Below, in pieces: positions 124-18,210 of a stretch of 20,319 nt of DNA (the first letter of the stretch is position 1; each line of letters starts with the position of its first letter). This stretch comes from a virus: the IMG/VR virus record IMGVR_UViG_3300017773_000204, positions 1 through 20,319 of that record, one strand, 5' to 3'. Position numbers and translations under genes: made by a program. The notes under the pieces were generated by a model. The model ran no database searches and had not been told where the DNA came from. It saw only the letters and a list, made by a program, of their open reading frames with translations.

Positions 124-3100
124 ATGTCAGACCTAGTACTGAAGATAAAAAATGCAAACGGTGATTTGCAACGAGTATCTTCGTCCGAAGAAAATTTCTT
201 AGCGTATCGTGCTGGTCTTCAGTTAAAGGCGTCTGGTGGAACTTCTGTGGGCGACTTAAAGACTCAGTCTGCTAACGCAAGTAGTATCGGTTCATTCACA
301 AATACATTCTATAACGAACCAGTAGGAACTCACCCAGCTTCTTCTCTTTCAATTGGTACTACAACTACCAATCTTTACTCACAACAAGGTACAGCAAACG
401 AAGACGCCATTGATAACAATCATCGTAATAACTGGCAAATGCCTATTAAATATGCGACTGAAAATGGTAAGTTAGGACTACACCCACTGACTCAGAATCA
501 GATGGACAGTCTTACAGATCGTCTGAATAGTATTATTGCAACCAACGATTATGTTGGTTCATACAAACTTGGATCTTCTGCGCCTAGTAGTGATTATTCA
601 GAAAAGTTTACTGCGTTTACCGATACTCGTACAGACGGAACTTCTACTGATTACAAGATTTATCAGAGAACCACACAGACAGCCCCGACTGCAATCGATG
701 TTGCATACGTCTTAGATAGTGATGGATATCAAGGTATTCATACAATGACGAACCAACAGATGAACTATACTTTTGGTCAAAGATGTAAAACCAGAAGGGC
801 AATATTAGGTAACATTGGTTCATACGAACTTCGTAGTTCTGCACAAGGAGCTCCTACATCTGCTGGTACATGGGTTGCAAAAGGTACTGCGGTAGATACA
901 CGTAATACAACATTTGAAGGTAACTATACTAGAACTCGTTCATCTATCTACACTACAGATAGAATATCTACCTACTCAAGAACATCTACTCGAACAAGTA
1001 CAAGAGATTTTGTTGGTGATTACGTAGGTAATTATTCTAGAGACTTTATTGGTAATTACTCTAGAGGTTTCGCTGGTAACTACGCTCGTGACTTTATTGG
1101 TAACTATGTAAGGAATAGGGTATCAACTTACAACAGAACTAGTACTCAAAATTTTACACGTTCTTTTGAAGGTAACTACGCTCGTAACTTTACTGGTAAC
1201 TATTCCAGAACGTTTACTGGAAACTACACTCGTGCTTTTGTCGGTGAGTATTCACGTACTAGTACTAGAGGTAGGGTTAGTACATATGCTAATACATATG
1301 CAGGCGACTTTACTCGTGACTACACTGGTGACTTTGTAGGAAACTATTCTCGTAACTTTGCTGGTAACTTCGCTGGTAACTTTGTAGGTAATTATTCTAG
1401 AACAAGACTGTCCGCATTTAACAGGACTAGAGTTAGTCAATATGCTCGAAACTATATAGGTAATTATTCTAGAACTAGAGTTCAAGCATACTCAGACGAT
1501 TATACCAGAACTAGAGTAGTTAACTACGCTGGTAACTACGTAGGTAATTACGCACGAAACTTTGCTGGTAACTTCACTAGAGGCCGTGTATCTAACTATA
1601 CAAGTGTTATTACCGATAACTATTCAAGAAATTTTGCTGGTAACTATGTCGGTGACTTTATAGGTAACTATACTCGTAATTTCTTAGGAAACTACTCTCG
1701 TGGTTTTGTCGGTGAGTACTCTGGTGCTCAGGGGGCTGCGGCTGAAGAACAAGGTAACCACATGTGGTTCATTGGTAACTATAGTAGAAATAGTACAAGT
1801 ACCTTTACCAGACCTAATGTTGACAATAATAGTACTCAGGTTTTCTCACGTGTTAGATACGAATACTTTATAGGTAACTATACTAGGGTATCTAACTACA
1901 CAAGAACTGACAACTTTACACGTATTAGACAGGCAGGATATGTAGGATCATCTACTTTTACGGCTTACCTATCGTTCTCTCGATTGATAGGTACTTTCCC
2001 AGGCGCATATCTCCAATACTATAGTCGGTATGCCTACTATACTGGTAATGATTACGGAAGAATGTCTACTACAATTTCTACGGATGTTGATACAGGAGAT
2101 ACCTTTACAGGTAACTTCACCTCTGGTGGAATATTCACTCGAAACTTTACAGGTAATTACTCTGGTAATTTGCCTCTAAATTTTTCACGTACATTAGACT
2201 TTACTTTCGAAACCACTGGCGAAGGCGGCCCCTTTGGTTATGTTGGTGAATATACTGGTGAATATACTGGCGACTTTATTGGTGATTATGCTGGTAACTA
2301 TGTCGGTGACTTTACAGGTAACTATAGTAGACAAAGAGCGTCAATATACTCAAGAACAAGGAACTCTGCGTATACACGAACAAGAACAAGTGCATATACT
2401 AGAAACTCCACGGACACGTTTACCAGAACAAGGAACTCTGTGTATTCTAGACAACGTGCTTCGAACTACGCTAGGACTTTTACTGGTAACTATGCCCGTA
2501 ACTTTGCTGGTAACTTCACTCGTGTTTCAACTAGAACAAGACCTAGTAATTTCGTGGGTAACTACGTTGGTAACTACTCTCGTGACTTTATTGGTAACTA
2601 CTCTAGAACTAGACCTACTACCTTTGCAAGGAGTTTTGTTGGTAATTATTCTGGTGATTATGTAGGTAATTATTCTAGAACATCTACCCGAACTTCTACA
2701 CGTACTAGAGCTTCTTCTTATTCTAGAACTCGTATAACTGACTTTACAGCGATCACGTCTACCAGAACGAGGAATACAACATTCTCTCAAACATTTACTG
2801 GTAACTTTGTAGGTAATTATTCTAGAACTAGAGTATCAGCGTATACAAGAGGTCGTAATTCAAGTTACAACAGAACACGTGTCAGCAATTATGTTGATAC
2901 CTATATAACTACACGTTCAAGTAATTACGTTGGTAATTATTCAAGAACGTTTACTGGTGAATACGCAAGAACTAGAACATCGAGTTACAATAGAACAAGA
3001 ACGTCTTCTTATGCGAGGACTAGAACTTCGAGTTATTCCGCACCGTATTCGAGGACTAGAGTTTCAAATTATGGCGGTAATTACGTTGGTGATTATGCTA

Positions 3101-3213
3101 GAGCATTTGGTGCAGAATTTACTAGAGGTTTTGTGGGTGATTATATCGGTACAACTATTTCAACATCTTCTGAACAGGTCGAAACATATACGCTATATGT
3201 CCGTGAATCTTAA
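124..3213 (+). CDS. Giant repeat-containing virion structural/fibre-like protein (shorter paralogue)
   Basis: 1029 aa; I infer a virion surface or fibre protein. Residues 1-264 form non-repetitive head domains: a start region (LKIKNANGDLQRVSSSEENF), a segment around 55-80 with YNEPVGTHPASS, a beta segment at about 143-182 ending YKIYQRT, and a segment at 208-260 with MNYTFGQ, NIGSYELRSS and TWVAKGTA. Residues 265-1007 are a tetrapeptide-periodic domain (units such as VGNY, SRNF, TRTR, TSSY), interrupted at about 540-720 by an irregular island holding the only Trp of the repeat domain. The last 22 residues (GTTIS...ETYTLYVRES) match the end of the next protein. AAGGG at 111-115 sits 8 bases before the ATG. 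The head resembles, from memory, large structural proteins of marine T4-like phages. Its exact place in the virion cannot be read from sequence. No signal peptide or membrane segment is visible. Confidence 0.8.
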   Translation: MSDLVLKIKNANGDLQRVSSSEENFLAYRAGLQLKASGGTSVGDLKTQSANASSIGSFTNTFYNEPVGTHPASSLSIGTTTTNLYSQQGTANEDAIDNNHRNNWQMPIKYATENGKLGLHPLTQNQMDSLTDRLNSIIATNDYVGSYKLGSSAPSSDYSEKFTAFTDTRTDGTSTDYKIYQRTTQTAPTAIDVAYVLDSDGYQGIHTMTNQQMNYTFGQRCKTRRAILGNIGSYELRSSAQGAPTSAGTWVAKGTAVDTRNTTFEGNYTRTRSSIYTTDRISTYSRTSTRTSTRDFVGDYVGNYSRDFIGNYSRGFAGNYARDFIGNYVRNRVSTYNRTSTQNFTRSFEGNYARNFTGNYSRTFTGNYTRAFVGEYSRTSTRGRVSTYANTYAGDFTRDYTGDFVGNYSRNFAGNFAGNFVGNYSRTRLSAFNRTRVSQYARNYIGNYSRTRVQAYSDDYTRTRVVNYAGNYVGNYARNFAGNFTRGRVSNYTSVITDNYSRNFAGNYVGDFIGNYTRNFLGNYSRGFVGEYSGAQGAAAEEQGNHMWFIGNYSRNSTSTFTRPNVDNNSTQVFSRVRYEYFIGNYTRVSNYTRTDNFTRIRQAGYVGSSTFTAYLSFSRLIGTFPGAYLQYYSRYAYYTGNDYGRMSTTISTDVDTGDTFTGNFTSGGIFTRNFTGNYSGNLPLNFSRTLDFTFETTGEGGPFGYVGEYTGEYTGDFIGDYAGNYVGDFTGNYSRQRASIYSRTRNSAYTRTRTSAYTRNSTDTFTRTRNSVYSRQRASNYARTFTGNYARNFAGNFTRVSTRTRPSNFVGNYVGNYSRDFIGNYSRTRPTTFARSFVGNYSGDYVGNYSRTSTRTSTRTRASSYSRTRITDFTAITSTRTRNTTFSQTFTGNFVGNYSRTRVSAYTRGRNSSYNRTRVSNYVDTYITTRSSNYVGNYSRTFTGEYARTRTSSYNRTRTSSYARTRTSSYSAPYSRTRVSNYGGNYVGDYARAFGAEFTRGFVGDYIGTTISTSSEQVETYTLYVRES
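916..3144 (+). repeat. 12-bp / 4-residue coding repeat domain, shorter paralogue
   Basis: Codons 265-1007 of the 1029-aa protein follow a 4-residue unit: small/beta residue, then G or R, then N/D/T/S, then usually Y or F, with Arg-rich variant units (TRTR, TRTS). On DNA this is a degenerate 12-bp period with varied synonymous codons (GGTAACTAT, GGAAACTAC, GGTAATTAT). The periodicity produces open shadow frames in other phases (for example 2234-2665) that are not genes. No Lys or Cys was seen in the stretch. Confidence 0.9.
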
Positions 3214-3258: not shown

Positions 3259-3297
3259 ATGTATAAGCGTTATGGCGTATTCAGATATACCAATTAG
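3259..3297 (+). other. Possible 12-codon leader ORF overlapping the giant gene start
   Basis: ATG at 3259 opens a 12-residue frame (MYKRYGVFRYTN) ending at TAG 3295-3297. It overlaps the ATG at 3272 in another frame. The best purine-rich site, GGAAA at 3253-3257, is close to this ATG and 14 bases from the annotated start, whose own upstream sequence is a poor ribosome site. This may be a chance frame or a translational-coupling leader. Confidence 0.2.
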
Positions 3298-6200
3298 AAT
3301 CAAGGAATCGTACTCAAGTGGTAGTAATGCCAACTTTGATGCGAACGACTTGGCTCAATATGCCCCATCCGATGAACGTAACATTGCCTATAATGCTGGT
3401 AAGTATGCGTTGTCGAAGGTGGGGAATTCTGGTGCGGACAGGTATATGCCAGGCTGGATCGGTGTTATTAATGATGGTGACCGAACTTCTATTGGTTCTT
3501 ATTCTGATACCAAGTATAATGAAGCAGATGGAACTCACCCTGCTTCTGCCATATCTCTTACTACAACCACAACAACTCTATCTTCTAGAGATGAGTTATA
3601 CTCTAACCTAGCAAATGCAAATAAAAAATTAGGTAGTTCAGGTCTTCCAGAGGCTGGTGTCAAATGGCCTATGGTTTGGGATAGTGCTTTAAAATCTTTC
3701 CGTCTTCCTACATTTGCTGAATGTGAAGCAATGTCAGATAGGATCAATAGTTTCATTGCAACCAATAACTACCCAGGCCTCTACTATCTCGGTTCGTCTG
3801 CACCAAGTGATGGAGACACATGGAAGGTTGCACAATCAACAGTTTTCTCTGATACAATTAATTCGGGTACGGTAGTTAACTATAACATCTATGTCAAAGA
3901 AGACATGGCGTCACCCCCAAGTACAGACACATACAATCGTCCTTTGTTTATCTGGAAAGGTAATACCGAGTTGTATGATAATGATAACACAAATATAAGA
4001 AATCACGGTCTAGCCGAACATATCGCAATGGAGACAATCTCTACTTGTCGATACAGTGCGATATATCCTAGTACAATCATTACAGAAGAACAATCAAACG
4101 GTACTACCACTTTAATAACAACCACAGGTAGTGTACCAGAAAGAGGTTCGTTCCCAGTAACAGCAGGACGAAGTTATTATGGTAACAAACCTATAGAACT
4201 ACACAGAAATGATCATGGTAATGTCATGGTTCCTTGGTCACTACGTGGTCGAGAGTTTGGTGGATTCTCTAATAGATATGGAGACAGTACATATTTCTTA
4301 TTTGCAAAAGAAGCGTGTACCGTAAAATTCTTTGTAAACGAAACAAATGGTATCAATGGTACTGCGACAAGAACCGTATCATTAAGTGCAAACACAGTAC
4401 AAACAGAAACATTCACTGGTATTGATAATCAGTGGGTATTCATCACATCTACAAAAGATATAATAGTTTCTTCAGAAGAGGATGATGGTGATAAACTCAG
4501 AATACCACCAGCTGTTCAAAACGTATATCGTGCATACAATTCTGACGAAAGAACTACTGTAAACACTGCACCCACTACTGCAACTGGTAACTTGATAACC
4601 GACAGTAATGGTTATAATGTTGTTGCGTTTAAAAGTGGTGACGGTGCTGGTAGTGATGCAAACCAAGGTCTAGGTGAAGAGTTCTTATCAAACACTTTTT
4701 CTTGGGGTGATGCACTCAGAGACTATAACATTGTTGCAAGAGATGCCGATACCATTGTTACCGTATCATATTGGGACACGTCAGATAACGATTGGGTGGT
4801 ACAAGAGTATCACTACATGAACGCAAATAACATGGTCGCACGTAATGGTAATGACGGGCCAGGCGCTGACGGTGCATCAGGTGATCAGGACGGTGCAAGC
4901 ACAGTAGCACAGTTTGCGAATGGTGCCAATCTATGGAAGTTCGAATCAAACAATCCTATCATGGTGAGAGTCAATGATACATCTGGTGATGAAGAACAAG
5001 TGATGGGTTGGATGTCTGATCTTGCAAAAGATGGATATGAGACTGGAACCTTCCAAGGATTCCGTGAGATGACCGACTATCAAATGGGACACACCTTTGG
5101 TCAACTAGCAGCTAACCGAAGATCCACCAAGGGAAATATTGGATCATACGAATTACGTAGTTCTTCTCAAGGCGCCCCAACCGCATCTGGTACATGGGTT
5201 GCAAAAGGAACCGCAACAGATACTAAGAAAGATACTATAGAAGTTGCGTATACAAGAACACGTGCATCATCATATACAAGAACACGTCCGTCAACATATT
5301 CAAGAACACGTAATAGTAATTACACAGATGATTACACACGTGTTAGAATATCAAATTATGCTGGTGACTATACACCAACCTTTACTGGTGATTACACTCG
5401 TACATTTACAGGTAACTTCTTACGTACTAGAACATCATCGTACAGTAGAAACTTTGTCGGTAATTACTCAAGAAACTTTGTCGGTAACTATGTTAGAACC
5501 AGAGCATCAACCTATACTAGAAATAGTACTGCGGTACGTACATCAAATTTTGTAGGAAACTACACAACAACAAGAACGTCTGCTTACTCTGATAACTATA
5601 CTCGTACAAGACTTGATAACTTTGTTGGAGACTATGCTAGAAATAGGGTGTCTACCTACAATAGAACTAGTACTCAATCGTTTACTGGAAATTATGCACG
5701 TGCCTTTACACGTACACGTATTTCAAGTTATGAAAGAACTAGAGTCTCTTCATATGCTGGAAACTTTACTGGCAACTATACACGAACAAGAGTCAGTGGT
5801 TTCACTACTACATTTAGTGACACATACTCTCGTAATTTTACAGGTAATTATTTACGAGACTTCGTAGGTAACTATTCAAGAAATTTTGTTGGAGAGTATG
5901 TCGGAGACTTCACTGGTGATTACGTAGGTAACTATGCACGTGCCTTCGAAGGAATATATACTAGAACAAGAACATCCCAGTACACAAGAACTTCAACACG
6001 TACTAGACATTCTGCATATACCAGAACGTCTACACGTACAAGAACGTCATCATATAGTGCCGACTACACAAGAACCAGAGCTTCTAGTTATAGTCGAACT
6101 TCAACACGTAACAGAAGTTCTGCATACACTAGGACATCTACACGTACCAGAACATCTACATTTAATAGAAACCGTGTAAGTGCATATACAGGTAACTTCG

Positions 6201-9200
6201 TTGGTAACTACTTACGACCATTCGCTGGTAACTTTGTAGGAAACTACGGTAGAAACTTTGTTGGAGAATACACTCGTAACTTTGAAGGAAACTACTCAAG
6301 AAATTTTGGTGGTAACTATGTTGGGGATTTCATAGGTAACTATGTACCAAACTATGTGGGTGATTACGCCCGACAATTCTCACGTAATTTTACCAGAACA
6401 TTTGTTGGGGACTTTACTGGTAATTACTCTCGTAACTTTGTTGGTAACTTCGGTGGTAACTTTACTGGAAACTATTCAAGAACCAGAATATCTTCATACA
6501 CTGGTAACTATCAAAGAGGTTTTGTTGGAGACTTCGTTGGTGACTTCGTAGGAAACTACTCAAGAGATTTCGTTGGTGATTACGTAGGTAACTATTCACG
6601 TAACTTTGTGGGTGAGTATACTACTACTTTTACTGGCGATTATACTCGAACAAGTACAAGAAACAGTACTAATAACTTTGCTCGTAACTATGCGAGAACA
6701 CGAATAACTGATTATGTTGGTGATTTCACTCGTACATCAACAAGAAGCCGAGTTTCGAATTACTCACGTAACTTTACACGTAATAGTACAAGAACATCTA
6801 TCTCATACTATCAGAGAACTTCAACACGTAGTAGACATTCTGCGTATACCAGAACTTCTACACGTACTAGAGTTTCTGCATATTCGGATAATTACTCACG
6901 TACACTTGCATATGTTGGTGACTATACTAGGAACATAACCTATACAGGTAACTATACCCGAACATTTACTGGTAACTTTGTCGGTAATTTCGCAGGAAAC
7001 TATACTAGGTCATTTGCTGGAAACTATGTAGGTAATTATTCACGTAACTTTACACGTAATTTTGGTGGTAATTACAACACCACATACACTGGTAACTATG
7101 CTAGACTGCGTGTAACAGACTATGCTGGAAACTTTACACGTACTCGTGTAACTGATTATGTTGGAGACTTTACACGTGACCAAGTAAATAATTATGCTGG
7201 TAACTTCTTAGGTAACTATGCGAGAATATTTACTGGTAATTTCGCTGGTGACTATTCAAGATCACGTGTCACAAACTACGAAGGCAACTTTGCTGGTGAC
7301 TATTCAAGAACACGTGTTACAAACTACGAAGGCAACTTTGTTGGTAACTATTCTAGAACATTTGCTGGTGACTTTGTCGGTGACTTTATTAGAAACTTTA
7401 CTGGCAACTTTACTGGTAATTACTCTCGTAATTTTGCTGGTGACTTTACTGGAAACTATTCTAGAAACTTCGGTGGGAATTACTCAAGAAACTATACACG
7501 TAATAGACATTCTGCATATGGTAGAACTCGTAACAGCACATACGTAGGAAACTATACTAGAGATAGTGTAACTAATTATACTGGTGATTATCAGAGAACA
7601 ACAAATACATACTTCAGCAGAACATTAGGTTTCACTACCACTTACATTGGTCATTATACAGGCAATACCTATCCCTATACTGGTAACTTTGTAGGTAACT
7701 ATACAAGATCTGGCGCTTACACTAGAACCACACATTATGCAGGCAACAGTGTTAGAACTAGTACACGATATCTGTACTTTGTTAGGATGTTAGGTTTTGA
7801 ACCATTTGAATATACTCGTATAGGATTCTATACAGGTAACTTTGCTGGCACCTTCTCAAGAACCGTTGGCTTCGGTACTGGAATCTTTATGAGAACTAGT
7901 ACACGTACTAGTGGCGTCAACTATGTTGGTGACTATGTTGGTATATCTTCTACTAGAGTATCAAACTACCTTGGTACGGTAACTAATAATTATCAACGTA
8001 CTAGTGCCGTATACTTTACTGGTAATTATACAAGAGATCGAGCTACAAGTTTCGCTGGTAACTATTCAAGAACATTTACTGGTAACTATGCACGTGCATT
8101 TACACGTACTAGAGTATCCGCTTATAACAGAAACAGGGTAACTAACTTTTCTCGTAATTATACTCGTGGACGTGTTACTGATTACTCACGTAATTATGCT
8201 CGTAATAGTACCAGAAACAGAGTATCTGCCTACAGTAGAACACGTGCCACGAACTACGCTGGTGACTTTGTAGGAAACTACGGAAGAACACGTGTCACTA
8301 ACTATGAAGGAAACTTTGTAGGAAACTACGGAAGAACACGTGCAACTGATTATATTGGAGACTTTACACGTGATCGTGTTACACAATTTGCTGGTAACTT
8401 CTTAGGTAACTATGCGAGGACATTCACTGGTAATTTCTTAGGTAATTATGTAACTGTATTTACAGGTAACTTTGTTGGTGACTACTCTCGAAACAGAGTA
8501 TCCTCATTTACACGTACAAGAGTCTCGAACTATGCACGGGCATATACTAGAACAAGTACACGAACACGAGTTGAAACCTATCAACGATCAAGAATAACCG
8601 ACTCTACGAGAGCTAGACATTCTGCGTACACAAGAGCTAGGGTATCAACTCACAATTATCAGAGAACTCGTTATAGTACATTCCACTATACAGGTAACTA
8701 TTCTCGTAATTTCGCTGGTGACTATACTGGAAACTATTCAAGAACCTTTGCTGGTAATTATGCTGGTAACTACGCTAGACCTTTCGCTGGTGACTTTACT
8801 GGAAACTATTCTAGAAACTATTCCAGAACATTTGCTGGAAACTTTGTAGGTAATTATGCAACAACATTTACTGGTGACTTTGTAGGAAACTACTCACGTA
8901 ACTTTACAGGTGACTTTGGTGGTAACTTTGTAGGTAACTATGCTACAGACTTTATTGGTAACTTTGTAAGAAATAGATACTCCGCATATGCAAGAACCAG
9001 AATACCAACAAGAACTAGTGCTTACGCAAGAACACGTGTTACCAACTTTACACGAGTTAGACTGTCCGCATACACTAGAGTTACTAATCAGGGATTCGTT
9101 GGTGAATACACACGTGTTTCGACAAGAACTTCTACAAGATCTAGAACTTCTACGTATACACGTAATGACCTAAACAACTTTGTTGTTACAAGAACAAGTA

Positions 9201-10771
9201 ATTATGTAACCACTTATTCGAGAACCATTATAGGTGTTAACTTTACCAGAATGGTTGCATACTTCAGTCAAACTCAATACTTTGTTCGAATGATTGGTGG
9301 CGAACCATTTGATTATTCTAGGGTTGTTCATTATGTTGGTACAGGACATTACGTAGGTGGATACACCAGAGAAAGAGATACCGCATTTACTCGTACTAGA
9401 AGTTCAGCTTATGTGACACAAAGAAACTCTACATTTACACGTACACGTGTTTCTAATTATACTAGAACTAGTACACGAACACGGAATGAAGACTATACTA
9501 GAACACGTGTGACCGATTATAGTAGAACATTTGTCGGTAATTACTCTCGTGATTTCGCTGGTAACTATACTGGAAACTATACTCGTTTATTTGCTGGTGA
9601 GTATGTTGGTAACTATAGTCGTGATTTTATCGGAAATTATACAGGTAACTATTCTCGTGATTTCGGTGGTAACTTCACTGGAAACTATACTCGTGCATTT
9701 GCTGGTAACTTCACTGGAAACTATACAAGAGACTTTGGTGGTAACTATGCTGGTAATTACACACGTAATTATACTAGGACTAGTACACGAAATAGTACAA
9801 ACACCTTCTCACGAATTAGGACTAGTACATTTAGTCGTGTCAGAAACTTTGTAGCTTTCACCAATGTAACTACAAATTACTCTTCGACTCAATACTTTGT
9901 TCGAATGATCGGTGGCGAACCATTTGATTATTCTAGAGTCGTACATTCGGTAGGTACAGGATATTATACTGGTGGATATTCAAGAACAAGAACATCTGGT
10001 TATGTTGGTAATTACGTTGGTAACTTTACAAGAGGGTTCTTGGGTGAATACACTAGAGTATCTACACGTACCAGAACGTCAAACTTTTTAGGTAATTATT
10101 CTAGAAACTTCACTGGTAACTACACACGTAATTATACAAGAGTACGTCATAGTAATTATGTGGGTAACTACAGTAGAACATTTGTCGGTGAGTACACCAG
10201 AACAAGACCTACAAGTTATGTCGGTGATTATGTAGGTAATTATTCCAGAGACTTCATTGGTGACTTCACACGTACTAGTACCAGAGACTACATGGGTGAC
10301 TTTACTGGTAATTATTCCAGAGACTTCATTGGAGAATATGCAAGAACTAGGATATCAGCCTACGAAAGAACAAGAACTTCTGGTTACACTAGAACATTTG
10401 AGTCAGTGTTTACCAGAGGAAGAGTTAGTAATTATACACGTGTAAGAGACTTTGTAGATTTCACTAGAAACACAGTTCACTATACACGTACTCTATACTT
10501 TGTCAGGATGTTAGGTTTTGAACCATTTGAATATACCAGAGTATCTAGTTTTACTGGTACTGGAAACTTCATTGGTGACTACGTAGGAGTATATTCTCGT
10601 GGATTCCAAGGTGACTACACTGGCGATTATACAAGAAATTTCGAGGGTAATTACTCTCGTGACTTTACTGGAAATTATTCCAGAAACTTTATAGGTAACT
10701 ATACAGGTACAACAATCGATACGAATACTTCGATTATCGAGACGTATACATTGTATTTAAGAACTGCCTAA
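3272..10771 (+). CDS. Giant repeat-containing virion structural/fibre-like protein (longer paralogue)
   Basis: 2499 aa, a paralogue of the gene before it. The head shares YNEADGTHPASA, a beta segment at about 169-211 (YYLGSSAPSDG...YNIYVKE) and, at about 598-655, MTDYQMGHTFGQ, GNIGSYELRSSSQGAPT and GTWVAKGTATDT. Between these, residues about 212-597 are an extra region absent from the shorter paralogue, looking like beta-sandwich material (KEACTVKFFVNE, NQWVFITSTKD) plus a Gly/Asp-rich linker near 525-540. Residues 661-2477 are a tetrapeptide-periodic domain with no Lys, Cys or Trp that I can find, broken by four YFVRM-EPF cassettes. The last 21 residues (GTTIDTNTSIIETYTLYLRTA region) match the paralogue. 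A late promoter octamer precedes it. I infer a virion fibre or adhesin; an unusually long tether is an alternative. It was probably lengthened by in-frame repeat recombination. Confidence 0.8.
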   Translation: MAYSDIPIRIKESYSSGSNANFDANDLAQYAPSDERNIAYNAGKYALSKVGNSGADRYMPGWIGVINDGDRTSIGSYSDTKYNEADGTHPASAISLTTTTTTLSSRDELYSNLANANKKLGSSGLPEAGVKWPMVWDSALKSFRLPTFAECEAMSDRINSFIATNNYPGLYYLGSSAPSDGDTWKVAQSTVFSDTINSGTVVNYNIYVKEDMASPPSTDTYNRPLFIWKGNTELYDNDNTNIRNHGLAEHIAMETISTCRYSAIYPSTIITEEQSNGTTTLITTTGSVPERGSFPVTAGRSYYGNKPIELHRNDHGNVMVPWSLRGREFGGFSNRYGDSTYFLFAKEACTVKFFVNETNGINGTATRTVSLSANTVQTETFTGIDNQWVFITSTKDIIVSSEEDDGDKLRIPPAVQNVYRAYNSDERTTVNTAPTTATGNLITDSNGYNVVAFKSGDGAGSDANQGLGEEFLSNTFSWGDALRDYNIVARDADTIVTVSYWDTSDNDWVVQEYHYMNANNMVARNGNDGPGADGASGDQDGASTVAQFANGANLWKFESNNPIMVRVNDTSGDEEQVMGWMSDLAKDGYETGTFQGFREMTDYQMGHTFGQLAANRRSTKGNIGSYELRSSSQGAPTASGTWVAKGTATDTKKDTIEVAYTRTRASSYTRTRPSTYSRTRNSNYTDDYTRVRISNYAGDYTPTFTGDYTRTFTGNFLRTRTSSYSRNFVGNYSRNFVGNYVRTRASTYTRNSTAVRTSNFVGNYTTTRTSAYSDNYTRTRLDNFVGDYARNRVSTYNRTSTQSFTGNYARAFTRTRISSYERTRVSSYAGNFTGNYTRTRVSGFTTTFSDTYSRNFTGNYLRDFVGNYSRNFVGEYVGDFTGDYVGNYARAFEGIYTRTRTSQYTRTSTRTRHSAYTRTSTRTRTSSYSADYTRTRASSYSRTSTRNRSSAYTRTSTRTRTSTFNRNRVSAYTGNFVGNYLRPFAGNFVGNYGRNFVGEYTRNFEGNYSRNFGGNYVGDFIGNYVPNYVGDYARQFSRNFTRTFVGDFTGNYSRNFVGNFGGNFTGNYSRTRISSYTGNYQRGFVGDFVGDFVGNYSRDFVGDYVGNYSRNFVGEYTTTFTGDYTRTSTRNSTNNFARNYARTRITDYVGDFTRTSTRSRVSNYSRNFTRNSTRTSISYYQRTSTRSRHSAYTRTSTRTRVSAYSDNYSRTLAYVGDYTRNITYTGNYTRTFTGNFVGNFAGNYTRSFAGNYVGNYSRNFTRNFGGNYNTTYTGNYARLRVTDYAGNFTRTRVTDYVGDFTRDQVNNYAGNFLGNYARIFTGNFAGDYSRSRVTNYEGNFAGDYSRTRVTNYEGNFVGNYSRTFAGDFVGDFIRNFTGNFTGNYSRNFAGDFTGNYSRNFGGNYSRNYTRNRHSAYGRTRNSTYVGNYTRDSVTNYTGDYQRTTNTYFSRTLGFTTTYIGHYTGNTYPYTGNFVGNYTRSGAYTRTTHYAGNSVRTSTRYLYFVRMLGFEPFEYTRIGFYTGNFAGTFSRTVGFGTGIFMRTSTRTSGVNYVGDYVGISSTRVSNYLGTVTNNYQRTSAVYFTGNYTRDRATSFAGNYSRTFTGNYARAFTRTRVSAYNRNRVTNFSRNYTRGRVTDYSRNYARNSTRNRVSAYSRTRATNYAGDFVGNYGRTRVTNYEGNFVGNYGRTRATDYIGDFTRDRVTQFAGNFLGNYARTFTGNFLGNYVTVFTGNFVGDYSRNRVSSFTRTRVSNYARAYTRTSTRTRVETYQRSRITDSTRARHSAYTRARVSTHNYQRTRYSTFHYTGNYSRNFAGDYTGNYSRTFAGNYAGNYARPFAGDFTGNYSRNYSRTFAGNFVGNYATTFTGDFVGNYSRNFTGDFGGNFVGNYATDFIGNFVRNRYSAYARTRIPTRTSAYARTRVTNFTRVRLSAYTRVTNQGFVGEYTRVSTRTSTRSRTSTYTRNDLNNFVVTRTSNYVTTYSRTIIGVNFTRMVAYFSQTQYFVRMIGGEPFDYSRVVHYVGTGHYVGGYTRERDTAFTRTRSSAYVTQRNSTFTRTRVSNYTRTSTRTRNEDYTRTRVTDYSRTFVGNYSRDFAGNYTGNYTRLFAGEYVGNYSRDFIGNYTGNYSRDFGGNFTGNYTRAFAGNFTGNYTRDFGGNYAGNYTRNYTRTSTRNSTNTFSRIRTSTFSRVRNFVAFTNVTTNYSSTQYFVRMIGGEPFDYSRVVHSVGTGYYTGGYSRTRTSGYVGNYVGNFTRGFLGEYTRVSTRTRTSNFLGNYSRNFTGNYTRNYTRVRHSNYVGNYSRTFVGEYTRTRPTSYVGDYVGNYSRDFIGDFTRTSTRDYMGDFTGNYSRDFIGEYARTRISAYERTRTSGYTRTFESVFTRGRVSNYTRVRDFVDFTRNTVHYTRTLYFVRMLGFEPFEYTRVSSFTGTGNFIGDYVGVYSRGFQGDYTGDYTRNFEGNYSRDFTGNYSRNFIGNYTGTTIDTNTSIIETYTLYLRTA
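7154..7243 (+). repeat. 90-bp segmental duplication, copy A
   Basis: This stretch encodes DYVGDFTRDQVNNYAGNFLG and the following ten residues. It matches 8348-8437 closely at the DNA level, including the identical run ggtaacttcttaggtaact, beyond what the basic 12-bp unit explains. The offset is 1194 bp (398 residues). Confidence 0.75.
7253..7348 (+). repeat. Tandem pair of 48-bp (16-residue) higher-order repeats
   Basis: Two adjacent 48-bp units begin at 7253 and 7301. Each encodes Y-S-R-(S/T)-R-V-T-N-Y-E-G-N-F-(A/V)-G-(D/N), four tetrapeptides long. Near identity of DNA (including acaaactacgaaggcaac in both) points to recent duplication. Confidence 0.85.
7775..7819 (+). repeat. YFVRM-EPF cassette 1
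   Basis: Residues 1502-1516 read YFVRMLGFEPFEYTR. This sits inside an irregular island (about residues 1440-1570) where the 4-residue register breaks down. It is most like cassette 4. Confidence 0.85.
8231..8374 (+). repeat. Three tandem 48-bp (16-residue) higher-order repeats
   Basis: Units start at 8231, 8279 and 8327. They encode YSRTRATNYAGDFVGN, YGRTRVTNYEGNFVGN and YGRTRATDYIGDFTRD. The same 16-residue unit occurs as a tandem pair at 7253-7348, so the two places share a duplication history. Confidence 0.85.
8348..8437 (+). repeat. 90-bp segmental duplication, copy B
   Basis: Partner of 7154-7243. It encodes DYIGDFTRDRVTQFAGNFLG and the next ten residues, with the same downstream sequence tatgcgag followed by a TGNF unit. 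Confidence 0.75.
9278..9322 (+). repeat. YFVRM-EPF cassette 2
   Basis: Residues 2003-2017 read YFVRMIGGEPFDYSR and are followed by a V-V-H-Y-V-G-T-G-H-Y segment. It is nearly identical to cassette 3 at both DNA and protein level. Confidence 0.85.
9893..9937 (+). repeat. YFVRM-EPF cassette 3
   Basis: Residues 2208-2222 read YFVRMIGGEPFDYSR, 205 residues after cassette 2. The downstream VVHSVGTGYYTGGY echoes cassette 2, so the pair probably arose by duplication of a block of about 200 residues. Confidence 0.85.
10496..10540 (+). repeat. YFVRM-EPF cassette 4
   Basis: Residues 2409-2423 read YFVRMLGFEPFEYTR, 201 residues after cassette 3. The core is identical in protein to cassette 1, but the upstream segment (RVRDFVDFT) resembles that of cassette 3 (RVRNFVAFT). 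Confidence 0.85.
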
Positions 10772-10817: not shown

Positions 10818-11288
10818 ATGAGTAGTAGAAAATGGTTAGATAATGCCTTTTGGGAAAGAGACGATAAGGAACAGTTAAACTGTATCTTAGAGTTAGAAGA
10901 TGATGCTGGTCGTCAAACACGACAAGTCATGAAACTTAATAGAGTTGATAAAGAGGGTAACCCTAATCCAGATTATGATGAAGTAATCGAGGTGTTGGGT
11001 GATGAGTTAGTAACTCAGAATACTGAAGACAGAAAAACTCGAAAGTCTGCCGAAAAGGAAGAACGGAAACTTCGAGATCAAGAACATGCGAAAGCACGTA
11101 AGATGGAAGAACTCTTCAATTACAAGATGGAAGCGTTTGAGGTTGACGAAATAAAGAATTGTAAGAACCGAAAACTAAAAGGTAAGTTGAGACGTGCGAA
11201 GTCAAAGATTGAAGTTGATTTATATGCAATGATGGTTCTTCAGGAACATCTTGCAAATGAGGAGAAAGAGAATGACGGAAAAGACTAA
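10818..11288 (+). CDS. Charged conserved phage protein of unknown function
   Basis: 156 aa, soluble, very rich in Lys, Arg, Glu and Asp. Residues 1-65 look globular (WLDNAFWERDD, then ILELEDDAG). Residues about 68-110 are a run of charged residues with coiled-coil character (TRKSAEKEERKLRDQEHAKA). The end holds the segment EVDEIKNCKNRKLKGKLRRA and IEVDLYAMMVLQE. From memory this layout recurs in a conserved hypothetical family next to fibre genes of marine T4-like phages, but no function is established to my knowledge. AGGAG at 10807-10811 lies 6 bases before the ATG. Its end overlaps the glycosyltransferase start by 17 bases, so translation is likely coupled. A chaperone or assembly role for the giant proteins just upstream is possible but unproven. 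Confidence 0.8.
   Translation: MSSRKWLDNAFWERDDKEQLNCILELEDDAGRQTRQVMKLNRVDKEGNPNPDYDEVIEVLGDELVTQNTEDRKTRKSAEKEERKLRDQEHAKARKMEELFNYKMEAFEVDEIKNCKNRKLKGKLRRAKSKIEVDLYAMMVLQEHLANEEKENDGKD
11261..11264 (+). promoter_or_regulatory. Ribosome binding site deciding the glycosyltransferase start
   Basis: GGAG lies 7 bases before the ATG at 11272. A longer in-frame reading from ATG 11251 (prefix MQMRRKR) would place this site inside the gene, so 11272 is the better start. Confidence 0.6.
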
Positions 11289-12000
11289 GGGCATTGTAGT
11301 TGTTGCGAGTAACAAACCCAACTTCTACAAGTACGCAATTAATCTTATTGATTCTATTCGTGATTTTCACGAAGATGCTAATATTACACTAGTAACAGAA
11401 CCTTGGATGATCGATGAACGTGCAGAAGAACTTGCTGATCAGATCATTCATTGTGATGACCACTATCGTGCAAAATTGTGGGGGATGACTCAATCTCCGT
11501 ATGACCTCACAATGTATATCGATGCGGACATGGAATGCGAACATGAAGATATAGCAAACGTCTATGATGAACTTGGTGACTATGATGTCATGTTTACTGA
11601 ACTTACAGATGAACGTGATTACATCTATGCAGAAAGAGATTTTGATACACCAGAAGGGCCCGCAAAGTTTACTCTTTGTGGAGGCGTCTGTTTATATGAT
11701 ATGAGTAAACCTATCGTTCGTCAGTTTATGGATGAATGGTGGGAACTAACACGAAGACAGATGGACAAAGAATGGTGGCCTGAAGGTTACGCAGAAAGTC
11801 TTCGTTCATGGGATCAGTTCTCTCTTTGGTGGTTAACCGAAAGAACGGACAAATATAAAGATCTCAAAATAGGAATATTTAAAGATGACATGCGTTGGAA
11901 CTATTACAATGCGTGGAATTGGGCAAGAACAAGACCAGAAGGAGAAGTTGTATTACGACACTATTCTTGTGGATTAGATAAGGACGGACATATAGTATGA
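11272..12000 (+). CDS. Glycosyltransferase, GT-A fold (GT8-like)
   Basis: 242 aa from the chosen ATG. GT-A enzymes move a sugar from a nucleotide sugar to an acceptor using a metal held by a DxD motif. Visible here are an N-terminal beta strand (GIVVVASNKPNFYKYA), the DxD motif in MYIDADME (D84, D86), a central CGGVCLYD at 136-143, a conserved-looking SWDQFSLWWL at 179-188 that fits the acceptor/catalytic region, and a C-terminal RHYSCG (H230) placed like the third metal ligand of GT8 enzymes. There is no membrane segment. It overlaps the gene before it by 17 bases and the oxygenase-like gene after it by 4 bases (ATGA). Donor and acceptor are unknown. Virion proteins or host glycans are both plausible. 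The family call is by motif only. Confidence 0.7.
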   Translation: MTEKTKGIVVVASNKPNFYKYAINLIDSIRDFHEDANITLVTEPWMIDERAEELADQIIHCDDHYRAKLWGMTQSPYDLTMYIDADMECEHEDIANVYDELGDYDVMFTELTDERDYIYAERDFDTPEGPAKFTLCGGVCLYDMSKPIVRQFMDEWWELTRRQMDKEWWPEGYAESLRSWDQFSLWWLTERTDKYKDLKIGIFKDDMRWNYYNAWNWARTRPEGEVVLRHYSCGLDKDGHIV

Positions 12001-12716
12001 GCGATTTAGATACTTCAATGAGGACAATACCAATCAGAAACCAAGAACTGATTGAGATTCTTGATAGGTATGTTAAACTAAGAACCGATAACCCAGAGGC
12101 ATTTGAAAAGTATATGCATCTGAGTTGTAATCATGAACGTGGTCAGAAAGATTGGTACACTGGTGAAAAATACTTATCACAAATAATTGCTCAGGGCGAT
12201 CGACATGAAGGTTTCCCAGAATCTATGGTCGGTTATGAGTTCAGGACAAACCAAAAGAATCATAGGTTCTTCAAGAATGAATTCGCTGAAACTGGAGAAG
12301 AGGCTATATGGAGACAAAACTTTGTCGAAGAATTAAGTTCTGTCCAACTAGACATAATGCACTTCATGGGATGTCGTAACAATGCATTGACAGCAGTTTA
12401 TCCGCCTGGCGGGTTTATTGGATGGCACAATAATGCGAATGCTTCTGCATGGAATTTCATATTTTCTTGGAGTGAAAATGGAGAAGGCAGTTTTGATTAT
12501 TGGGATATTCAAAAGGGTGAGATTGTCAAAATGCAAGACGAACCAGGCTGGCAGTTGAAGGCAGGATACTTCGGTCATTATGGTGAAGAGGATAAAATCT
12601 TCTATCATTCAGCTGGAACAGACTGTTGGAGACATACTATATCATTTTGTTTCGATAGATCAGATGCAAGTGAAGAATATCGTGAACAAATAATAGATGA
12701 AATTAGTTCAGAATAA
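11997..12716 (+). CDS. 2OG-Fe(II) oxygenase-like protein
   Basis: 239 aa. 2OG-Fe(II) oxygenases hydroxylate proteins, nucleic acids or small molecules in a double-stranded beta-helix fold with an HxD...H iron triad and a distal Arg that binds 2-oxoglutarate. The second half fits that pattern: YPPGGFIGWH at 135-144, then FNFIF-like strands, a GEGSFDYWD segment at 162-170, and FYHSAGTDCWRHTISFCF at 202-219. Candidate ligands are H144, H204 (60 residues later) and R212. The residue two after H144 is Asn146, not Asp or Glu, which is unusual for a hydroxylase. Residues 1-110 are mostly helical and unrecognised. Its start codon overlaps the glycosyltransferase stop. It is the last gene before a late promoter. 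An inactive or differently acting beta-helix enzyme is the alternative. Confidence 0.55.
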   Translation: MSDLDTSMRTIPIRNQELIEILDRYVKLRTDNPEAFEKYMHLSCNHERGQKDWYTGEKYLSQIIAQGDRHEGFPESMVGYEFRTNQKNHRFFKNEFAETGEEAIWRQNFVEELSSVQLDIMHFMGCRNNALTAVYPPGGFIGWHNNANASAWNFIFSWSENGEGSFDYWDIQKGEIVKMQDEPGWQLKAGYFGHYGEEDKIFYHSAGTDCWRHTISFCFDRSDASEEYREQIIDEISSE

Positions 12717-12768: not shown

Positions 12769-13125
12769 ATGGCAGAATACGAAGACTTTACAATTGATCA
12801 AGGCGCAGATGTAGCAATCGAGATCCATCTCAAAGAACAAGATGGCTCTAATAAAGATTTGACTGCACATACGATCACGTCTAAAATGAAAAGAAATTAT
12901 AATGCTGATGCTGATGGCACTGTAGATTTTACAACTGCGATTGGTGATCCAGCGTCAAACGGAGTAGCAATACTCACATTGACTAACGAACAGACAGATC
13001 AATTGATTACGACTGGTCGTTATGTATATGATGTCGAGATTTCTTACGTGGATGAAGACAATAATATTATTATTGAACGTGTCCTCGAAGGGAAAATTAA
13101 AGTTAACCCTTCGGTAACAAGGTAG
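12769..13125 (+). CDS. Small beta-sandwich virion protein (fibre-associated)
   Basis: 118 aa. The sequence begins with a FTIDQGADVAIEIHLKEQDG segment, then ITSKMKRNYNAD, and ends GRYVYDVEISYVDEDN followed by VLEGKIKV, a pattern of alternating beta strands with no helices of note. From memory it matches a widespread small family in marine phages whose members resemble the N-terminal domain of baseplate upper/receptor-binding accessory proteins. The role (adaptor or baseplate/fibre connector) is inferred from that and from its place as first gene of the fibre group. No enzyme motif is seen. It is preceded by a late promoter octamer and only a weak ribosome site (TAGAG). Confidence 0.65.
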   Translation: MAEYEDFTIDQGADVAIEIHLKEQDGSNKDLTAHTITSKMKRNYNADADGTVDFTTAIGDPASNGVAILTLTNEQTDQLITTGRYVYDVEISYVDEDNNIIIERVLEGKIKVNPSVTR

Positions 13126-16173: not shown

Positions 16174-18210
16174 ATGGCAACAAATCCGTATATTAGTCAA
16201 AAGGTACGTTCAGAACAACACCTATATGAAGACCTAGTAATAGAGTCTTTAAAGTTCTATGGTCAGGACGTATACTATATCCCACGTGAGATAGTCAACC
16301 AAGATAAAATCTTCGGTGATGACATTCCGTCACGTTTTTCTGATTCATACAAGATCGAGATGTACATCGAGAACCAAGAAGGTTTCGATGGAGAGGGTGA
16401 TCTATTCACTAAGTTTGGTATTGAGTTAAGAGACCAAGCCACGTTTGTTGTCGCACGTAGACGTTGGAAGAAACTAGTAGGTGACAATCTTGCGGAACAC
16501 GGTTTCCGTCCTCGTGAAGGAGATGTCATTTATCTACCTATGTCAGAATCTATGTTTGAGGTTCTCAAGGTAGAAACAGAAACCCCATTCTATCAATTAA
16601 GTAATCTGCCTACATTCCGTATGCAGTGTGAGTTATTCGAATACAGTGACGAAGACTTTGATACTGATATCCCATCTATCGATGCGATAGAGTATGAAGG
16701 TGCGTTCCAGTATAAACTTACAATGAATACAAGCGAAGAGAACAAACCTGTACTAGTTCCTGTACTGACAGATCAAGGTAGAGTTGAATCTGTTACTATT
16801 CAGAGTGGCGGTTCTGGTTATGTAACTGCTCCTACACTTGTAACTAGTGGTGTTATAAACGCATCTAAATTTGGTAGATCTGCGTTATACTCTAATTTAG
16901 GTCATGGTGATGAAGGACAGTATCTATTACAGAATGCAGAAGGTACAGTAGAACTATTCATCAAACCAACTAATCTGCCTAATTCTGGTCAACAAGCATT
17001 ATTCGTTACAGGGGGTGATACACCTCAGAACGAAATGATCTTTGGTCTGAATAACAATGGTAGAATAGTGTATTCTTATGCTGATAACAATGGTCAGTCA
17101 TTAAATGAAGTACCAAACGATACTATACAAGCTGGTAACTGGGCACACGTACTTGTAGGTCACGATGACAACGACTTCTTTGTTTATGTTAACGGTACAA
17201 AATATGTTGACTCAGCTTCAGACAGAACACTTAACCTAATAAGTAATCATGGATTCTCTGTGGGTTCATTCGCTGCTCGTGAAGTTGACGGTATTAACTA
17301 CAGTTCGTTTAATGGTCAAATTGATGAGATGAGAGCGTTGGTAGGAGACGCCTCAACGATCTTTGACTCTAGACTAACACATACTACACAGTCTTACACA
17401 CTAACCATATCGGGCGGTGATGGTGCAGACTACACATTCGATGCAAGTCAGTCTGATAGAAATGGTGAAATTACAGACTTGACAGATCCAGAAATTAATG
17501 TTATAATAGGCGATACACTCGTCCTTGATAACAACTCTGGTGGTCATCCAATAGAGATTAAAGACAGTAGTGATAACGTAGTCGCAACACAAGATGTTTC
17601 TACAGAAGAAACTACGTTCACTCCAACTGCAACAGGAACATATACGTATCAATGTACTGTAACTGGTCATGAGAATATGGTCGGATACATTGTGGTATCT
17701 GCTCAACCTACAGGAATACCTGTACCAGATTCAGAGTTTGATAGTAATTCGAATACTGCATTACTGAGACACTTCAACGGTGATTCCGCAGAGATTACTG
17801 CGGTAATGACAGGTGGTTCTATATCTTCGGTTAATATTGTAGACTCTGGTGATTACTATACATCAATACCTACTGTAACAGTCGATGCGCCTACGGTTGG
17901 TGGTCAGTTCATTGTAGGTGAAACGGTTACTCAAGATAATACTTCTTACTCAATCAAAGGTGAAGTAACACGTTGGTCAGATAGTGACCGCATACTTCAA
18001 CTTGCACACGTGGGAAGTACGGACGGAACATTCAAGTCATTCTCAACAAATGCTAAGATAGTTGGTGCATCATCTTCAGCTGAGTGGGTTCCTAAACTTG
18101 TAGAAGAATTACAACAAATACAGAATACTGCACAGAATAAAATCTTTGATGATTTCGAAAGTGACTTCTTAGACTTCAGTGAAAGTAATCCATTTGGAGA
18201 TATATTTTAA
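16174..18210 (+). CDS. 14: Neck protein gp14 with inserted LamG-like and cupredoxin-like domains
   Basis: 678 aa against about 256 in T4. The conserved gp14 body is split. Residues 1-183 contain the usual start (ISQKVRSEQHLYEDLVIESL, FYGQDVYYIPRE, FRPREGDVIYLP). Residues about 575-678 contain the usual end (FIVGETVTQ and LDFSESNPFGDIF). Between them are a GGSGYVTAPTL motif at 212-221, a LamG/concanavalin-like module (about 225-400, with GTVELFIKPTNLP, GNWAHVLVGHDDNDFFVYVNG and FNGQIDEMR), a cupredoxin-like domain (about 406-510), the sequence SNTALLRHFNGDS at 526-538, and a second SGDYYTSIPTV motif. The protein sits at the neck next to gp13, with a 1-base gap after the gp13 stop. The insertions presumably project from the neck, like collar or whisker decorations; that is inference. 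Confidence 0.9.
   Translation: MATNPYISQKVRSEQHLYEDLVIESLKFYGQDVYYIPREIVNQDKIFGDDIPSRFSDSYKIEMYIENQEGFDGEGDLFTKFGIELRDQATFVVARRRWKKLVGDNLAEHGFRPREGDVIYLPMSESMFEVLKVETETPFYQLSNLPTFRMQCELFEYSDEDFDTDIPSIDAIEYEGAFQYKLTMNTSEENKPVLVPVLTDQGRVESVTIQSGGSGYVTAPTLVTSGVINASKFGRSALYSNLGHGDEGQYLLQNAEGTVELFIKPTNLPNSGQQALFVTGGDTPQNEMIFGLNNNGRIVYSYADNNGQSLNEVPNDTIQAGNWAHVLVGHDDNDFFVYVNGTKYVDSASDRTLNLISNHGFSVGSFAAREVDGINYSSFNGQIDEMRALVGDASTIFDSRLTHTTQSYTLTISGGDGADYTFDASQSDRNGEITDLTDPEINVIIGDTLVLDNNSGGHPIEIKDSSDNVVATQDVSTEETTFTPTATGTYTYQCTVTGHENMVGYIVVSAQPTGIPVPDSEFDSNSNTALLRHFNGDSAEITAVMTGGSISSVNIVDSGDYYTSIPTVTVDAPTVGGQFIVGETVTQDNTSYSIKGEVTRWSDSDRILQLAHVGSTDGTFKSFSTNAKIVGASSSAEWVPKLVEELQQIQNTAQNKIFDDFESDFLDFSESNPFGDIF
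16846..17373 (+). other. LamG / concanavalin-like module inserted in gp14
   Basis: Residues about 225-400 of gp14. The order of strands GTVELFIKP, GNWAHVLVGHDDN, FFVYVNGTKYVDS, FSVGSFAA and GQIDEMRALVG follows the common LamG/pentraxin-like jelly roll seen in phage adhesive proteins. Such domains often bind glycans; ligand unknown. Confidence 0.7.
17389..17703 (+). other. Cupredoxin-like domain inserted in gp14
   Basis: Residues about 406-510 of gp14. The strand pattern YTLTISGG, INVIIGDTLVLDNNSGGHPI, TFTPTATGTYTYQCTVTGHE and NMVGYIVVS matches small blue copper proteins. All four type-1 ligands are present: H458, C494, H499 and M502, with the azurin-like Cys-x4-His spacing. Copper binding is inferred. 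Confidence 0.7.

Follow-up and report, generated by a model that had tools for sequence, protein, structure and literature searches.

Two tandem genes of the window, by which we mean the whole 20,319-nucleotide stretch analysed (IMG/VR virus record IMGVR_UViG_3300017773_000204), encode proteins that probably form giant antiparallel hairpin fibres zipped by residue rules; we put the probability of this reading as a whole at about 0.86. Its downstream neck and terminase genes mark the window as part of the genome of a T4-like marine phage, and the tetrapeptide array lies in the genes at 124-3213 (P0002, 1029 aa) and 3272-10771 (P0001, 2499 aa). All features are given below in window coordinates and lie on the + strand. 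That the two arms of the array pair antiparallel in mirror register is strongly supported by several sequence-based tests that do not share assumptions. A literature search found no description of such an array, of a hairpin fibre or of the related phage C48C1, nor of the architecture set out here.

A four-residue register in two tandem proteins

The initial annotation had cut the P0001 array into four-residue units, and autocorrelation bears this out. Across residues 661-2477, identity reaches 0.19 to 0.29 at lags of 4, 8, 12, 16 and so on, against 0.10 expected, with a peak at every multiple of 4 (z of 12 to 27); odd lags are depleted (z about -9), and residues 1-660 show no period-4 signal in the same analysis. 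The unit described in that annotation matches, once rotated by one position, the consensus [Y/F/R/S]-[T/A/V/S/I]-[G/R/S]-[N/T/D/A] obtained from 6,243 units of 63 related proteins, and its view that the two faces of an extended strand alternate is judged to be right. Its statement that the register runs for hundreds of residues without slip holds for residues 662-1451, an unbroken 790 residues. Slips occur in the tip, at about 1452-1562, and where the second half carries three inserts of 41 residues each. The composition is dominated by T, R, Y, G, N and S, with almost no Lys, Trp or Cys.

At the DNA level, most repeat periods in the array genes are multiples of 12 nt, and units of the same sequence are written in many different codons (the 23 copies of TRTS come in 20 DNA versions), which indicates selection on the protein and not on the DNA. 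Local periodicities beyond first-order expectation were found at 8 residues in P0002 and at 12/24 residues in P0001. The 12/24-residue superperiod was considered as a solenoid rung and set aside as inconsistent, being seen in P0001 and in family averages and absent from P0002. Recent DNA duplication as its source was likewise rejected, as the superperiod persists when silent-site-similar pairs are excluded.

The expectation that the array would match no described fold was upheld: no Pfam family matched the array protein, and a profile search of solved structures with the array gave no credible match. A search with an array piece of 84,980 bacterial and archaeal genomes yielded no relative. The initial annotation had proposed structure prediction of array pieces; for one of 240 residues, modelled in isolation, it was uninformative (pLDDT 39.5), and in hindsight such a piece is missing its partner arm.

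The array occupies a predicted hairpin of the base domain

An AlphaFold2 model of P0002, built with 34 sequences, has residues 1-271 at pLDDT values mostly between 80 and 97, the next 730 residues at about 30, and the last ~20 residues at 93 to 97. The confident part is built from a module of a helix and a beta-hairpin, present in three copies. In the third module, the hairpin strands are residues 250-271 and 1004-1027, both with high pLDDT; the C-terminal strand pairs into this hairpin, which places the array in the hairpin loop, with a chain that leaves the base and returns to it. The array is predicted with high confidence to be an insertion in the beta-hairpin of the last module of the base domain, with the tail closing onto the base.

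On the basis of the model and the alignment, the N-terminal base domain of P0002 comprises residues 1-269 (124-930). Its C-terminal tail, residues 1006-1029 (3139-3210, ...VETYTLYVRES), forms the last base strand (pLDDT 93 to 97), is near-invariant across the family, and is similar to TDYKIYQRTT, the second strand of module 2. The base domain of P0001, residues 1-661 (3272-5254), was recognised by a match to P0002 residues 13-193, and its tail, residues 2476-2499 (10697-10768, ...IIETYTLYLRTA), the base-closing strand, is conserved with P0002 and the family. Very short members of the family (301 aa, L047) consist of one module, the array and the tail.

P0001 residues about 270-580 (window 4079-5011) make up an extra region of ~300 residues before the last base module, and a Pfam search of the P0001 base region, with these residues included, returned no family. 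The last module is placed late in L033 and L041 too, suggesting a similar extra region there. The full P0002 model yielded nothing useful in fold searches, which say little about the base domain because two-thirds of the model is unfolded.

Two arms of matched length flank a midpoint tip

A chain that runs out and back is expected to turn at its midpoint whatever the length of the array. Among 29 proteins with arrays of about 200 to 3,000 residues, register loss per 5% bin was 0.48 and 0.44 at 45-55% of the array and 0.03 to 0.1 at both ends. The excess of irregularity in the middle over the ends was 0.254, compared with 0.001 (SD 0.041) under random shifts, and was reached in 0 of 5,000 of them. 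In P0002, threading pairs residues 270-396 with 1005-879 and 397-535 with 877-739, giving an outgoing arm (270-535; 931-1728) and a returning arm (739-1005; 2338-3138) on either side of an irregular tip at the array midpoint (536-738; 1729-2337), which is marked by a phase break, lies outside the main paired segments and is the putative receptor-binding end. The corresponding parts of P0001, delimited by register, phase break and threading, are an outgoing arm of 790 residues without slip (662-1451; 5255-7624), an irregular tip (1452-1562; 7625-7957) and a returning arm antiparallel to 662-1451 (1563-2475; 7958-10696).

Outgoing and returning arms are nearly equal in length (236/240, 460/456, 264/260 and 224/228 residues). 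Simple phase walking fails to give arm lengths for bulge-bearing proteins, those of the window included, and for these threading was used instead. The middle is the most divergent part in several close pairs, with an identity of 0.33 against about 0.68, 0.43 against 0.82, and 0.69 against 0.91 to 1.0, as expected for a receptor-binding tip.

Changes in length are matched between the arms. The smaller fibres of L025 and L030, which are 97-98% identical, differ by only two indels, +32 at 458 and +32 at 766, and their larger fibres by +60 at 408 and +60 at 1106; the mirror positions of these indels in the AlphaFold register are 777/469 and 1111/413, respectively. Mirror indels were also found for single units (+4 at 604 with +4 at 748; -4 at 461 with -4 at 751) and for two units (+8 at 347 with +8 at 865; +8 at 72 with +8 at 274). 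Over 49 pairs, not all of them independent, 35 equal-size indels across the arms fell at the mirror constant, compared with a mean of 4.6 and a maximum of 17 elsewhere.

Residue rules couple the two arms

Mutual information between the arms peaks at i+j = 1275/1277 in P0002 numbering, which is the base register of the AlphaFold model. For 31 non-redundant proteins, which as in all the covariation tests are relatives and not statistically independent, the peak reaches 0.295 and 0.286 nats at two adjacent same-face offsets, compared with about 0.09 to 0.12 when off register by more than a few residues and with 0.150 (SD 0.019) in a between-protein control. Paired sites of close relatives are also substituted together, with an odds ratio of 15.1 at the mirror register and of 1 to 6 elsewhere.

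The rules themselves are specific to position. Opposite pairs at position 1 are Arg-Phe at 3.2 to 3.4 times expectation, Tyr-Tyr at 1.5 times and Arg-Arg never. At position 3, Arg-Gly, Arg-Ser and their reverse are enriched, and Arg-Arg occurs 13 times against about 107 expected. Taken together, these rules have FxGNYxR in one arm facing YxRTRxS in the other. On the opposite face, Thr goes with Asn or Asp, and Val or Ile with Thr or Asp. Coupling on the large face reaches towards +2 and on the small face towards -2, which would be consistent with a twisted antiparallel ladder. In P0001, the protein to which this count applies, exactly one Arg is found in 143 of 198 position-3 rungs (95 expected) and two Arg in 8 (32 expected), and Arg tends to alternate between the arms with periods of 2 and 3 units. 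The partner arm adds only a modest predictive gain over a strong grammar within each arm.

Threading recovers the proposed hairpin and three 41-residue bulges

The pairing rules used to thread the window proteins were derived from a training set that left out the window as well as L033 and L041, its nearest relatives. P0001 threads as 662-701:2475-2436, 702-864:2394-2232, 865-1028:2190-2027 and 1029-1451:1985-1563, with a score of 568.7 compared with 97.4 (SD 11.1) when the second-half units are shuffled; its mean pair score is 0.53 in the mirror register and at most 0.09 at the other tested offsets. P0002 scores 206.4 against 29.8 (SD 8.6) for shuffled sequence. An independent set was fetched via the dioxygenase-like neighbour gene described below, with less than 25% of 7-mers in common with the training proteins, and 28 of its 28 proteins scored above their own shuffles (median z of 16). 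Some distant relatives thread poorly, with a paired fraction of 0.24 to 0.57.

The threading of P0001 leaves three bulges of exactly 41 residues unpaired, all in the returning arm, at residues 1986-2026 (9227-9349, ...YFVRMIGGEPFDYSRVVHYVGTG), 2191-2231 (9842-9964) and 2395-2435 (10454-10576). The same motif, YFVRM[IL]G[GF]EPF[DE]Y, is present in all three, and a fourth copy lies in the tip; the copies of this YFVRM module are at residues 1502-1508, 2003-2009, 2208-2214 and 2409-2415 (window 7775-10516). Counted from the base, the first two bulges are 163 outgoing-arm residues apart and the next two 164. The 41-residue module was found in no other fetched locus. In well-threaded proteins, it is the returning arm that holds the large bulges (at least 20 residues), and the globular insertions of C48C1 are among these.

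Array genes have conserved neighbours

Array genes sit among fibre-assembly and neck genes, in an order common to phage C48C1 and the IMG/VR relatives. Wherever a locus extends far enough, the genes for D1, a glycosyltransferase-like protein, a dioxygenase-like protein and a fibre-assembly homologue come in this order after the array gene; L013 and its near copies are the exception, as no D1 was detected in them. In the window, D1 is a charged protein of 156 aa adjoining the fibre gene (10818-11288), a possible assembly factor. The glycosyltransferase-like protein (11266-12000) has an invariant DxD (D86, D88) in the alignment, and its relatives give weak Pfam GT2/GT8 matches: 8 of 19 members match Glycos_transf_2 weakly (best E of 4e-4) and one matches GT8 (8.5e-4), and no match to a solved structure was obtained. 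The 2OG-Fe(II)-dioxygenase-like protein (11997-12716), whose gene overlaps the previous one by 4 nt, is so named from its motif (WHxN ... H ... R); H144, N146, H204 and R212 are invariant, with HxN in place of HxD/E, and profile searches gave no family match. The next gene (12769-13125) encodes a homologue of 'L-shaped tail fiber protein assembly' proteins (phrog_3304, E of 1.4e-14; phrog_1084, E of 5.3e-20), and further downstream are neck proteins, a tail sheath stabiliser, and the small (PF11053) and large terminases.

Loci fetched by the dioxygenase-like gene alone contain an array gene in 73 of 80 cases. Six of the other seven end at a contig edge. Within the stretch examined, L065 is truly exceptional: its D1, glycosyltransferase-like and dioxygenase-like genes have no array gene directly upstream. 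The glycosyltransferase-like gene adjoins the dioxygenase-like gene in all 75 testable loci, by a strict rule in 62 and with a longer overlap in 13. Given the weak family assignments, the pair is a possible fibre-modification cassette, and it is an attractive idea that the fibre might be hydroxylated and glycosylated by these two enzyme-like neighbours.

A gp14-like neck protein of the window (PF11649, E of 1.9e-35; 16174-18210) contains a large insertion that includes a Laminin-G/concanavalin-like domain (PF13385, E of 6.4e-13). This is followed by a stretch that is weakly plastocyanin/azurin-like (PF00127, E of 0.03) and keeps His...Cys...His...Met, so the insertion may include a copper domain on the phage neck.

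Relatives and known systems

The array is carried by phage C48C1 (OQ984149, Kyanoviridae; the unannotated protein WJE88074.1) and by more than 40 IMG/VR loci, and the relatives carry it mostly as two tandem paralogues. WJE88074.1 has the base domain, array, tail and downstream genes in common with the window, and its threading gives a hairpin whose returning arm carries large bulges. Unlike the window, C48C1 has one 3,300-residue protein and not two, with inserted globular domains. The array is also found between other domains in different scaffold proteins, of L036, L040 and L050, with hairpin scores of 86, 70 and 119 against 10 to 17.

This other fibre scaffold, in which the array is internal, lies at L036:1-2922, L040:4125-8474 and L050:1535-5752 (the last beginning MSYGLQ...), and its relatives in L001 and L011 lack an array. 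A cyanophage structural protein of S-RIM2 (L002, 9001-9417) has a similar but aliphatic VTGN/LTGD tetrapeptide array. The S-RIM2 TGNV arrays and that of the window have x-x-G-N tetrapeptides in common (tblastn); those of S-RIM2 are short, and their position 1 is aliphatic and not aromatic or Arg.

The beta-helix of T4 gp5 (PF22178) is likewise part of a phage virion protein with short G/N beta repeats of the form [hydrophobic]-x-G-[N/D]. However, gp5 has an 8-residue VxGxxxxx unit, three chains that run the same way and a C-terminus at the tip (PMC4576200), whereas the array has a 4-residue unit, an antiparallel return, a mid-chain tip and Arg/Tyr pairing rules; neither the octapeptide nor the course from base to C-terminal tip that marks the gp5 type was found in it. 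Pentapeptide-repeat and other beta-solenoids resemble the array in their short regular repeats and alternating faces and differ from it in that the array has a period of 4, mirror pairing of its arms and no stacking rungs, with neither a rung-length period nor a family HMM match. T4-like long tail fibres and their 'L-shaped tail fiber' assembly neighbours have the gene neighbourhood and the probable place in the virion in common with the array proteins. No sequence similarity to them was found, and there would be one giant hairpin chain per arm pair in place of several half-fibre proteins.

Alternative explanations

Antiparallel pairing could also occur between chains, with the outgoing arm of one subunit on the returning arm of its neighbour in a domain-swapped dimer or trimer bundle. 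Phage fibres are usually trimers, which favours such an arrangement, as does the lack of a core in a lone two-stranded ribbon of 790 residues, and covariation is equally compatible with swapped and single-chain topologies. In the single-chain model, the C-terminal strand joins the base of the same chain with high pLDDT, but the monomer mode of AlphaFold would draw a swapped strand likewise. We regard a swapped bundle as unlikely, though a real contender. The single-chain hairpin has a point against it as well, in that the AlphaFold2 arms are at a pLDDT of about 30, although the alignments behind these predictions did not match arms of unequal length arm by arm.

The initial annotation had offered a beta-solenoid fibre, with pentapeptide repeats as the nearest idea, and a flexible chain. 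Neither is supported, given that the array halves pair antiparallel with single 4-residue insertions matched at the mirror position. Such insertions fit an extended two-arm hairpin and do not fit rungs of at least 8 residues. The local periodicities of 8 (P0002) and 12/24 (P0001) speak for a single-chain solenoid with rungs of 8 or 12 residues, but the arms are equal, partners lie at constant i+j instead of i to i+rung, both array ends meet in the AlphaFold2 model, and no pentapeptide or other Pfam family was matched, leaving this fold very improbable. Much the same low probability attaches to a triple-stranded beta-helix formed by a trimer, as in the T4 gp5 spike, with its C-terminus at the far end. 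The [YF]-x-G-[ND] unit does resemble the VxG[ND] of gp5 (PMC4576200), one member weakly matches PF22178, and the S-RIM2 VTGN array has a low-complexity match to gp5; against this, the C-terminal strand comes back to the base, the units repeat at intervals of 4 residues instead of 8, and pairing between the arms is in mirror register. A condensing, intrinsically disordered chain of Arg/Tyr 'stickers' would suit the T, R, Y, G, N, S composition and the low pLDDT, yet it offers no reason for a strict register, position-specific pairing or compensated indels, and we consider it slightly less probable again. The least credible source of arms whose lengths mirror each other is an inverted duplication of the DNA. 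At the pairing register, bases are no more complementary than in the background (0.262 and 0.273, compared with 0.292 and 0.298), and R-F, Y-Y and R-G are not codon complements; an inverted-duplication origin is refuted by these two results.

Proposed architecture and significance

In the hairpin model, each tandem protein would be a very long virion fibre in which the whole array replaces the loop of a base-domain hairpin. The chain would run as an extended outgoing arm to an irregular tip and back as a returning arm, antiparallel over the whole length, to end as the C-terminal strand on the base. Pairing on the face of positions 1 and 3 would set Tyr against Tyr, Phe against Arg or Ser, and Arg against Gly or Ser, with Arg almost never facing Arg. 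Length would change by whole units in both arms together, so that one plan could serve arrays of 120 to about 1,800 residues. The pairing is presumably made within one chain by beta-ladder hydrogen bonds, high-confidence predicted pairs being confined to the base and the arms having a pLDDT of about 30. At 0.33 nm per residue, the arms would measure at most about 260 nm in the 2499-aa protein and about 90 nm in the 1029-aa protein. A two-strand ribbon alone would have no core, and the chains therefore likely associate further, probably as trimers.

Most likely the proteins serve as tail fibres in a T4-like marine phage, a role that fits the gene order (the fibre-assembly homologue and neck genes, and the tail genes of C48C1) and the variable tip. 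The tip is a putative receptor-binding element, and together with the three 41-residue loops of P0001 it would be a likely site of host contact. Antiparallel pairing of strands several hundred residues long by a readable residue code, with compensated insertions keeping the two in step, is not known to us from any protein. There is a good probability, somewhat below that of the hairpin model as such, that these fibres represent a protein duplex with a side-chain code, RNA-like threading and compensated growth, used in at least two unrelated phage scaffolds and perhaps hydroxylated and glycosylated.

The failure of AlphaFold on the arms, at a pLDDT of 30, can mask a highly ordered design that plain covariation exposes. 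If the hairpin model is true, these proteins would constitute a new fold class among phage fibres and would suggest modular, length-tunable protein zippers, and the model would help to locate tips and modules for receptor binding in the giant, unannotated proteins that marine phages encode.
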